A program made the translations under genes and the position numbers. Of a stretch of 44,857 nucleotides of DNA, positions 15,715-20,258 are shown piece by piece. Position 1 is the stretch's first letter; each line of letters begins with the position of its first letter. Origin of the DNA: Betaproteobacteria bacterium (GTDB lineage: Bacteria; Pseudomonadota; Gammaproteobacteria; Burkholderiales; SG8-41); contig CANHZX010000003.1 in the NCBI GenBank assembly GCA_947465215.1, positions 1 to 44,857 of the forward strand, written 5' to 3'. The notes below the pieces were generated by a model, which was given only the letters and a program-made list of their open reading frames with translations, was not told the origin of the DNA and did no database searches.

Positions 15715-18315
15715 ATGCGCTTCGACAAATTCACCACCAAGTTCCAGCAGGCCTTCGCTGACGCACAAAGCGCGGCGGTTGGCGGCGACCATGCCTATAT
15801 TGAACCCCAGCACCTGTTGCTGGCGCTGATCAATCAGGACGATGGCGGCACAGCGTCGCTGCTGCAGCGTGCCGGCGTCAATGTTGCCGGGCTGCGTGGC
15901 GCGCTGAAGAGCGCACTGGAACGTCTGCCCAAGGTCGAAGGCACCGGCGGGGAAGTTACGATCTCGCGTGATCTGGGCAATCTGCTCAATCTCACCGACA
16001 AGGAAGCGCAGAAGCGCGGGGATCAGTATGTCGCCTCCGAACTGTTTCTGCTGGCGCTGACCCAGGACAAGGGTGAGACCGGTCGTCTGCTCAAGCAGTT
16101 CGGCGGTGACCGTTCGCCTATCGAAAAAGCGGTGGAAGGACTGCGCGGTGGCGAAACCGTCGGCAGCGCAGATGCAGAAGGCAGTCGCGAAGCACTGAAA
16201 AAATACACCATGGATCTGACCGAGCGAGCGCGCGCGGGCAAGCTCGATCCGGTGATCGGCCGCGATGATGAAATCCGCCGCGTGATCCAGATCCTGCAGC
16301 GCCGTACCAAGAACAATCCGGTGCTGATCGGCGAACCCGGCGTCGGCAAGACCGCCATTGTCGAAGGCCTGGCCCAGCGCATCATCAACGGCGAAGTGCC
16401 GGAGACGCTGAAGAACAAACGGGTGCTGTCTCTGGACATGGCGGCACTGCTCGCCGGCGCCAAATACCGGGGTGAGTTTGAAGAGCGTCTGAAATCAGTT
16501 CTCAAGGAAATCTCCCAGGATGCCGGCCAGACCATCGTCTTCATCGACGAGTTGCACACCATGGTCGGTGCGGGCAAAGCCGAAGGCGCAATGGATGCGG
16601 GCAATATGCTGAAGCCGGCGCTGGCGCGTGGAGAGTTGCACTGCGTCGGCGCGACAACGCTCGACGAATACCGCAAATACATCGAAAAGGATGCAGCTCT
16701 GGAGCGCCGTTTCCAGAAGGTGCTGGTCGACGAACCGTCAGTAGAGTCTACGATCGCCATCCTGCGCGGCCTGCAGGAAAAATATGAATTGCATCACGGC
16801 GTGGAGATCACCGATCCGGCGATTGTGGCGGCCGCAGAACTGTCGCATCGCTATATCACCGATCGTTTCCTGCCGGACAAGGCCATCGACCTGATCGACG
16901 AAGCGGCATCACGCATCAAGATGGAAATCGACTCCAAACCGGAATCGATGGACAAACTCGATCGTCGTCTGATCCAGCTCAAGATCGAGCGTGAAGCGAT
17001 CAAGAAGGAAAAGGACGAAGCTTCCAAGAAGCGTCTGGCGCTGCTGGAAGACGAGATCAAATCGCTTTCGCGTGAATATGCCGACCTCGAAGAAATTTGG
17101 AAGGCTGAGAAGGCGCAGGTGCAGGGCAGTGCGCATATCAAGGAGGAAATCGACCGCATCCGCGTCGAGATCGTCAAATTGCAGCGCGCCGGTAAGCTCG
17201 ATAAGGTTGCTGAACTGCAATACGGTAAATTACCGCAGCTCGAGGCCCAGCTGAAGCATGCTGAGACGGCAAACGCTGCTCCAACCAAACACCGTTTGCT
17301 GCGCACTCATGTCGGCACTGAAGAAATTGCTGAGGTGGTGTCGCGGGCAACCGGTATCCCGGTTTCGAAAATGATGCAGGGCGAACGCGAAAAGCTGCTG
17401 AAAATGGAAGAGCGGCTGCATGGGCGTGTGGTTGGCCAAGACGAAGCCGTGCGCTTGGTATCCGATGCGATCCGCCGTTCACGAGCAGGTCTGGGCGACC
17501 CAAAGCGGCCATACGGCTCTTTCCTGTTCCTCGGGCCGACGGGTGTCGGCAAGACGGAGCTGTGCAAGGCCTTGGCCGAGTTCATGTTCGATTCCGAGGA
17601 TCACCTGATCCGCATCGACATGTCGGAATTCATGGAAAAACACTCGGTTGCACGCCTGATCGGCGCGCCGCCCGGATACGTTGGCTACGAAGAGGGCGGT
17701 TACCTGACGGAGGCCGTGCGTCGCAAGCCGTACTCGGTGATTCTGCTCGATGAGGTCGAGAAGGCGCATCCGGATGTATTCAATGTACTGCTGCAGGTGC
17801 TCGATGACGGTCGCATGACCGACGGGCAGGGCCGCACCGTTGATTTCAAGAACACCGTGATTGTGATGACGTCCAACCTCGGCTCCCAGATGATCCAGGC
17901 GATGCAAGGGGACGACTATCAGGTCATCAAGCTGGCAGTGCTGGGAGAGGTGAAGACGCAGTTCCGTCCGGAATTCATCAACCGTATCGATGAGATTGTG
18001 GTGTTCCATGCACTCGACGAGAAAAACATCAAGTCGATTGCACGCATCCAGTTGGCCTATCTGGAAAAACGTCTGGCTCAGATGGAAATAAAGCTGGAGG
18101 TTAGTGATGCAGCGCTGGGTGAAATCGCTGCGGCCGGATTCGATCCGATCTACGGCGCACGGCCACTGAAACGAGCGATCCAGTCGCAACTGGAAAACCC
18201 GCTGGCGAAGCAGATCCTGGAGGGGCGCTTCGGTCCGAAGGATGGCATCCGCGTTGATGCCAAAAAAGGTGTGATGACCTTCGAAAAGTTGCAGGCTGCA
18301 ACTGTGGCCGCTTGA
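15715..18315 (+). CDS. clpB: ATP-dependent chaperone ClpB
   Basis: 866 aa; two Walker A motifs ([35 protein letters not shown]), ClpN repeats and middle coiled coil. Confidence 0.98.
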
Positions 18316-18394: not shown

Positions 18395-18423
18395 TTGCCA
18401 ATGCATGGTTGCAGGCGTAAAAA
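18395..18423 (+). promoter_or_regulatory. predicted sigma-70-like promoter
   Basis: TTGCCA (18395-18400), 17-nt spacer, TAAAAA (18418-18423), in the clpB-downstream gap with no good CDS. Confidence 0.45.
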
Positions 18424-18429
18424 TGTTTC

Positions 18430-18644
18430 CAGAGTTACGCAGCACTGGAGTGCCGGTACCGATTCTCCAGCGTGCGAAATTCCGGGCGATCGTCCGGATA
18501 TCGCCTGTCAGGTTGCAGGTGCAAACTGCAACTGGCGCAGCTCCCGAATGGTGTGATGCCATTCACCCAAGGACGTCGCTCTGGCGGCGCCGCGCCGGGT
18601 AACCGGTCGCACCCAAGCCCCGCTTCGGCGGGGCTTTTCATTTT
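18430..18644 (+). ncRNA. candidate structured small RNA (family unknown)
   Basis: About 210 nt between a promoter-like sequence and an intrinsic terminator; contains consecutive hairpins GTTGCAG-gtgcaaa-CTGCAAC, GAATGG-tgtgatg-CCATTC, GGCGAT-cgtccggat-ATCGCC and CTGGAG...CTCCAG; no convincing ORF. Confidence 0.45.
18615..18644 (+). terminator. intrinsic terminator
   Basis: AAGCCCCGC-TTCG-GCGGGGCTT followed by TTCATTTT; 9-bp stem with UUCG loop. Confidence 0.85.
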
Positions 18645-18908: not shown

Positions 18909-20258
18909 ATGGCCAATGATGAAGAAACACTGTTGCACTGGCTCTCTATAGAGAATGCCAACGACGGTATTTATGTCGTGGATCTGCAAGGCAAGGTGTT
19001 GCATGTCAATCGCGCGTTCTGTGCGATGCTGGGTTATACCCGTGATGAAATGGAGCGCAGCAATGTGCGGGACTGGGATGCGTCTTTTGATCCTGTGCAG
19101 TTGCACAATGAGCTGACCGACCTAACCGATCAGCGCAAGGTGATTCATGCTGCCTACCGCCGCAAGGACGGTTCATTGCAGGATGTCGAAGTGGCCGTTG
19201 CGGTTTCCTACGTGGGTGGCAATGCGGTGGTGCACTGTGCATGCCGTGATGTTTCCGATCATCATCGTGCCAGAGCTGAACTCGCTGAATCCGAGCGGCG
19301 GTTCTCTTCGCTGATGCAGCATTCCAGTGCCGGTGTTTACATCATTCAGGACGGAGCGCTGGTATACGTCAATCCGCGGCTGGCCAGCATGTTCGGTTAT
19401 GCAAAGGAGTCCGACGTTATGGGCCATAAAGTTGAGGACTTCGTAGCACAATCCTGGCGTCAGCAGGTCGTGGAGAACATGAACCGGCGGCTTTCCGGAG
19501 ATTGCCATCGCACACGCTTGGAGTTTGTTGCCATCCGCCGCGACGGCTCCGAATTCGAGGTTTCGGTGGACGGCGCGGTATCGTCTTATCAGGGACGACC
19601 GGCACTGGTCGGGCTGATTGAAGATCAGTCAGACCGTCAGAAAGCCGCTGATGTACTGAAGGCCTATGTATCGAAGCTTGAACTGGCGGTTCTCGGTACG
19701 GTGCAAGTAGCGTCATCCATGGTCGAGATGCGTGATCCCTATACAGCAGGTCATGAGCGCCGCGTCGGCGAGATTGCAGCGGCCATCGGTCGCAAGATGC
19801 ACCTCGAAAGTCATTGCATCGACGGCCTGCGCATCATCGGCCAGGTGCATGACATCGGAAAAATCGGCATACCTGCCGAAATTCTTTCCAAGCCCGGCCG
19901 GCTCTCTCGCAGCGAAATGGATCTGATCCGCGAGCATTCGCAGAAGGGGTATGAAATTCTGAAATCCGTCGAGTACCCCTGGCCGATCGCTGATGCCGTG
20001 CTTCAGCACCATGAACGCATGGACGGTACCGGCTACCCTCAGGGATTGTCAGGCGATCAGATCGGTATCGAGGCCCGAATCATGGCGGTTGCAGATACGA
20101 TCGAGGCGATGTCGGCGCACCGGCCGTATCGCGCCGGCCTCGGCCTGGATGCGGCATTGAACGAAATCGAACGCGGCAACGGCATTCAATACGACACCGT
20201 AACGGCGGAAGCCTGTCTGACGCTGTTCCGCGAAGACCGCTACGAACTGCCGGCCTGA
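18909..20258 (+). CDS. PAS-PAS-HD-GYP domain protein (putative c-di-GMP phosphodiesterase)
   Basis: Two PAS-like segments, then GQVHDIGKIGIPAEIL ... LQHHERMDGTGYPQGLSGDQIGIEARIMAVADTIEAM with intact HD and HD-GYP signatures. Confidence 0.94.
   Translation: MANDEETLLHWLSIENANDGIYVVDLQGKVLHVNRAFCAMLGYTRDEMERSNVRDWDASFDPVQLHNELTDLTDQRKVIHAAYRRKDGSLQDVEVAVAVSYVGGNAVVHCACRDVSDHHRARAELAESERRFSSLMQHSSAGVYIIQDGALVYVNPRLASMFGYAKESDVMGHKVEDFVAQSWRQQVVENMNRRLSGDCHRTRLEFVAIRRDGSEFEVSVDGAVSSYQGRPALVGLIEDQSDRQKAADVLKAYVSKLELAVLGTVQVASSMVEMRDPYTAGHERRVGEIAAAIGRKMHLESHCIDGLRIIGQVHDIGKIGIPAEILSKPGRLSRSEMDLIREHSQKGYEILKSVEYPWPIADAVLQHHERMDGTGYPQGLSGDQIGIEARIMAVADTIEAMSAHRPYRAGLGLDAALNEIERGNGIQYDTVTAEACLTLFREDRYELPA

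Follow-up and report, generated by a model that had tools for sequence, protein, structure and literature searches.

Organization of the region downstream of clpB

The window, that is, the whole stretch of 44,857 nucleotides analysed, carries clpB (15715 to 18315, + strand), encoding a protein of 866 amino acids, and downstream of it on the same strand a gene for a PAS/HD-domain (HD-GYP-like) protein (18909 to 20258). Positions 18427 to 18643 (+ strand), the stretch covered by the covariance model, almost certainly constitute the gene for a stand-alone noncoding structured RNA of about 213 nt, with a predicted transcript from approximately 18430 to 18641. Its upstream neighbour clpB is conserved among relatives and the PAS/HD-domain gene is not.

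A sigma-70-type promoter is predicted at 18395 to 18423 on the + strand (-35 TTGCCA, 18395 to 18400; 17-nt spacer; -10 TAAAAA, 18418 to 18423). Transcription would start at approximately 18430, a position placed 7 nt after the -10 hexamer. The RNA ends in the intrinsic terminator P8 (18615 to 18641, + strand), which consists of the hairpin AAGCCCCGC-UUCG-GCGGGGCUU (18615 to 18636) and the tail UUCAUUU. Sequence scans pick up both the terminator and the promoter-like hexamer pair. An earlier note, made from the sequence alone, had pointed to the same promoter and, as AAGCCCCGC-TTCG-GCGGGGCTT, to the same terminator hairpin; both are present in the sequence, and the promoter is also kept in homologs.

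Distribution among relatives

DNA searches located the stretch, from promoter through terminator, in most genomes of the genus at 76 to 92% identity; the intergenic DNA flanking it aligns poorly among these genomes. Covariance models R1, R2 and R3 were built from alignments A2, A4 and A9, respectively. With R2 the RNA was detected in 26 of the 74 genomes of the window's family, in four genera (at least 69 bits); in a second family, likewise of the order Burkholderiales, 24 of 98 genomes carried it (at least 48 bits). A wide score gap separates true homologs from false matches. Matches to R3 at E ≤ 1e-7 were confined to the two families among 399 sampled genomes of the order, and among 219 sampled genomes of the class the window's own was the only one at this threshold. 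Conservation in relatives, which the earlier note had proposed as a check, thus holds in two families of Burkholderiales.

The carriers are uncultured Burkholderiales or betaproteobacterial metagenome-assembled genomes. The RNA is patchy in the window's family and, as it is missing from many relatives, it is not essential to the lineage. There is no sign of a mobile carrier, since plasmid, phage and viral collections gave no match. Model matches of about 40 bits or less in other families (L070 to L079, L085 and L086) were left uncounted because those inspected proved to be ends of genes, or unrelated sequence with a terminator hairpin. Pattern matches in Azospirillum, an alphaproteobacterium, and Chitinivibrionales are attributed to chance (22.6 bits or less, or no model match).

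In both families, most homologs carry promoter hexamers immediately 5' of the RNA at a fixed distance (-35 TTGACN or TTGCNN, spacer 16 to 17 nt, -10 beginning with TA). The -10 hexamer has the form TARAAA/C in the window's family and is TANNTT-like in the second. Every homolog is closed by the same GC-rich terminator hairpin and U-rich tail.

A conserved and covarying fold

The predicted fold has an energy of -102.3 kcal/mol versus a mean of -84.7 kcal/mol for shuffled sequences (z = -3.67; none of 200 shuffles was as good), which is more than chance would give; the evidence from comparison of homologs is stronger by far. Eight helices or hairpins make up the RNA, all on the + strand: P1 encloses P2, P3 and P4 in a multibranch domain, which is followed by P5, P6, P7 and the terminator. 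P1 (18432 to 18543; pairs 18432-33/18542-43 and 18436-40/18535-39) shows two-sided changes at all seven pairs somewhere in alignment A5; its pair 18437-18538 is A-C in the window. P2 (18442 to 18473) shows compensatory changes at 11 of 11 pairs in A5 and includes CTGGAG/CTCCAG around CGGTACCG at approximately 18444 to 18468. In the window's family, 18 of 25 sequences retain its palindromic GGUACC loop, which genus g25 and the second family have lost. As DNA, the loop reads GGTACC (approximately 18455 to 18460); its palindrome is perfect in most members of the window's family, and loop-loop dimers could form through it.

P3 (18474 to 18504) is the most conserved module, reading CGARAU-YCCGGGC-RAYC-GUCCGGR-UA-UCG, with a 3x2 internal loop (18478-80/18499-500). 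It is followed by P4 (18511 to 18533; GTTGCAG/CTGCAAC, 18512-18518/18526-18532) and P5 (18546 to 18564; GAAUGG...CCAUUC), the latter with two-sided changes at 7 of 7 pairs in A9. P6 (18571 to 18591) has a conserved CUCU (GACGUCGCUCU-GGCGGCGCC; UGCCGCUCUNCGGCGGCA in other homologs), and P7 (18592 to 18609) contains CCGG-GUAA-CCGG at approximately 18595 to 18606. P7 varies, as does the loop of P4. At least 90% of A5 shares the following unpaired positions: A18489 (P3 loop), U18499 and A18500 (P3 internal loop), C18581 and U18582 (P6 loop) and the U residues of the tail. Of the hairpins listed in the earlier note, GTTGCAG/CTGCAAC, GAATGG/CCATTC, CTGGAG/CTCCAG and CCGG-gtaa-CCGG were all located in the sequence. 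The letters of a further one, GGCGAT/ATCGCC, are also there, but their proposed pairing is not that of the conserved fold, in which these bases belong to P3.

Covariation, a second check proposed in that note, is strong. In A5 (29 sequences) 93.2% of cells are paired, with two-sided changes at 45 of 69 pairs; in A9, the widest alignment (27 sequences from both families), the values are 92.4% and, with pairing kept, 48 of 69. For both alignments none of 500 shuffles scored as high as the real one. When partners were slid by one to three columns, pairing fell to 37 to 45% in A5 (37 to 46% over A5 and A9 together). Alignments derived from a covariance model lean towards the model's structure, and since A5 and A9 were fitted in this way the independent MAFFT alignments (A2, A7 and A8) carry particular weight. 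For A2, made from 14 full copies, the RNAalifold consensus has 69 pairs, 18 of them with two-sided changes, and the whole fold is visible. A8, a separate alignment of the second family, recovers P3 plus later hairpins, the P3 helix and the same 3x2 internal loop being found de novo. From A7 the fold emerges in part, as P2, the inner helix of P3, P4, P6 and P7.

The RNA is the founding member of a family absent from Rfam release 15, and belongs to a kind already known, the stand-alone structured bacterial noncoding RNAs. By sequence it has its own promoter and terminator and no conserved open reading frame, and its secondary structure covaries across diverged homologs, partly de novo in A8. The earlier proposal that this is an sRNA in its own right, unannotated and equipped with promoter and terminator, is thus supported by the lack of an Rfam match, by conservation and covariation, and by the conserved promoter. 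A well-supported RNA family is thereby added to lineages that have no cultured, studied member, and the covariation is strong enough to make the fold reliable, so that mutants guided by the structure, as well as pull-downs, can be planned immediately.

Possible mode of action

On the strength of the comparative evidence, the best overall explanation, and a probable one, is an independently transcribed, trans-acting structured RNA, most likely recognised by a protein via P3. RNA polymerase with a housekeeping sigma factor would start near 18430 and stop at the intrinsic terminator (18636 to 18641); transcription itself is deduced from these signals. The transcript would fold into the P1-closed multibranch domain, followed by P5 to P7 and the terminator, and would act in trans, a mode that follows from the independence of the RNA from its neighbours (see below). 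A protein would then recognise the nearly invariant P3 hairpin with its 3x2 internal loop, and the other helices would serve as a scaffold.

The protein-binding mode, taken by itself, is proposed tentatively. It is suggested because the P3 helix and the identity of its internal loop are kept across both families and the exposed loops are not. Furthermore, outside the P3 loops and the P6 loop hardly any unpaired base is shared between the families, a pattern that speaks for a protein target rather than a base-pairing seed. It is a more doubtful proposition that the RNA represents a new class of trans-acting, protein-binding RNA, comparable to 6S or SRP RNA and inherited beside clpB in two families, which would adjust the activity of a cellular protein by binding it through the invariant internal loop of P3.

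The main rival is a base-pairing regulatory sRNA dependent on Hfq or ProQ, whose exposed loops (GGUACC in P2, CUCU in P6) would pair with mRNAs. An own promoter, a short transcript and an intrinsic terminator are typical of base-pairing sRNAs, and the RNA fits this type; moreover, GGUACC is widespread in the window's family and C18581/U18582 of the P6 loop are conserved. However, the fold is long and compact, the GGUACC loop does not extend to genus g25 or the second family, and a search of the homolog alignment for a conserved unpaired seed found no family-wide stretch as long as 6 nt. A base-pairing role is therefore possible, but rather unlikely.

Relationship to clpB

Within the genus the RNA begins 107 to 180 nt past the end of the clpB match. 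clpB is nearby for most copies in the window's family and at 11 loci of the second family, many of which also have an AlgH-like (DUF179) gene near; the remaining second-family copies have unrelated neighbours. At one second-family locus near clpB (L060, genome G337), the RNA is flanked on the opposite strand by two AlgH-like (DUF179) reading frames.

This adjacency, together with a terminator that could end clpB transcripts too, would be accounted for if the hairpins were a 3'-UTR element of clpB, reached by read-through and serving termination or mRNA stability. Such a role is improbable, as the RNA has its own conserved promoter and clpB of many relatives ends without it. In genome G017 of the genus, clpB is present and the RNA absent, and elsewhere in the window's family other genes, with no RNA, often come after clpB; with filters off, no diverged copies were found after clpB in family members without a match. 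In five further genomes of the genus the RNA is absent and ClpB has no close match either, probably because their assemblies do not include the region. Copies also occur away from clpB (L059, L168, L170 to L177 and L180, and in G084, where clpB is found elsewhere and has no RNA beside it). Two copies are present in G174 (L059 and L083) and a tandem pair in G803 (L176:1501-1663 and 1747-1941). The gene after the RNA varies among relatives, and is convergent in L005 and L008. Relocated and duplicated copies and convergent neighbours argue that the RNA is not a 3'-UTR element of clpB and not a leader either. It forms a unit of its own, ancestrally near clpB, with a history of gain, loss, relocation and duplication.

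A functional connection with ClpB is conjectural, and nothing relevant to an RNA beside clpB was found in the literature searched. Persistence beside clpB in two families, along with copies that moved or were duplicated, means that a link to protein quality control can be tested; the arrangement may be mere conserved gene order.

Comparison with known RNAs

No part of the window matches Rfam at the gathering score, in agreement with the view that the RNA is not of a catalogued family. Searches with the window and 14 homologs, run at the gathering threshold and also at relaxed ones, gave only sub-threshold, terminator-like matches. The best relaxed match of the window is rsmX, at 25 of the 56 bits required, and is largely driven by the terminator.

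This match raises the question of a CsrA/RsmA sponge of the CsrB/RsmX type. Like the CsrB, RsmX and RsmY sponges (RF02144, RF00195), the RNA has several hairpins and a terminator, and AAGGA is found in 21 of 50 sequences. However, its scores are below gathering (25 of 56 bits and 24.5 of 57 bits), and its GGA motifs are few and do not lie in repeated loops. Instead of many ANGGA motifs in loops, the window has three GGA, with one AAGGA in a linker; homologs have one to eight GGA in total, seldom with more than one AAGGA, and do not present them in repeated hairpin loops. A sponge is accordingly very unlikely, even with AAGGA in the P4 apical loop of many second-family members. This CsrA-like or Shine-Dalgarno-like motif occurs there in L160, L162, L163, L165 to L167, L169 and L179.

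The RNA resembles 6S RNA (RF00013) in being a stand-alone structured RNA of the abundant type, about 200 nt long, with its own promoter and, by its presumed mode, acting in trans by protein binding. It is not 6S: RF00013 has no match in the window, and the conserved fold is a branched junction, unlike the one long hairpin with an open central bulge of 6S. The genome carries a separate 6S on another contig, C202 (70.9 bits).

Anti-hemB (Burkholderia RNA 7, RF02837) is also an RNA of Burkholderiales, and a single homolog (L060) fits its layout of two hairpins plus terminator at 30.4 bits. The gathering score is however 49.5, the aligned letters scarcely agree and the match does not reach beyond the 3' third of the RNA.

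A cis-acting leader (riboswitch or attenuator) of the downstream gene would be consistent with the compact junction and terminator, and in the window the next gene does lie downstream on the same strand. As a general role it is refuted by the convergent neighbours, no same-strand downstream gene being conserved, and it merits hardly any credence.

A small protein gene or dual-function RNA read from GTG at 18472 or ATG near 18557 is just as improbable: long chance frames exist in this GC-rich stretch and many relatives have a short frame after GGAG-N7-ATG, but the latter spans only 4 amino acids in L008, indels of 1 to 2 nt break every frame, and variability is flat with respect to codon phase. 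No conserved reading frame was found on either strand, as expected from the earlier reading of the gap as lacking a credible coding sequence.

Variant loci

A few loci depart from the common pattern. After clpB in G071, an 84-nt version (L057:1501-1584) has the 5' end, the GGTACC hairpin and the terminator, with the middle missing, and looks like an internally deleted remnant. Unrelated sequence replaces the 5' half of the RNA in L015/L040 (G009, contig C63, 1 to 430), possibly through a contig misjoin. Two loci, L095 (CAMCYP010000022.1) and L100 (CAMDLH010000293.1), come from metagenome-assembled genome records labelled Bordetella parapertussis; the RNA and its context group them with uncultured Burkholderiales, and the label is probably wrong.
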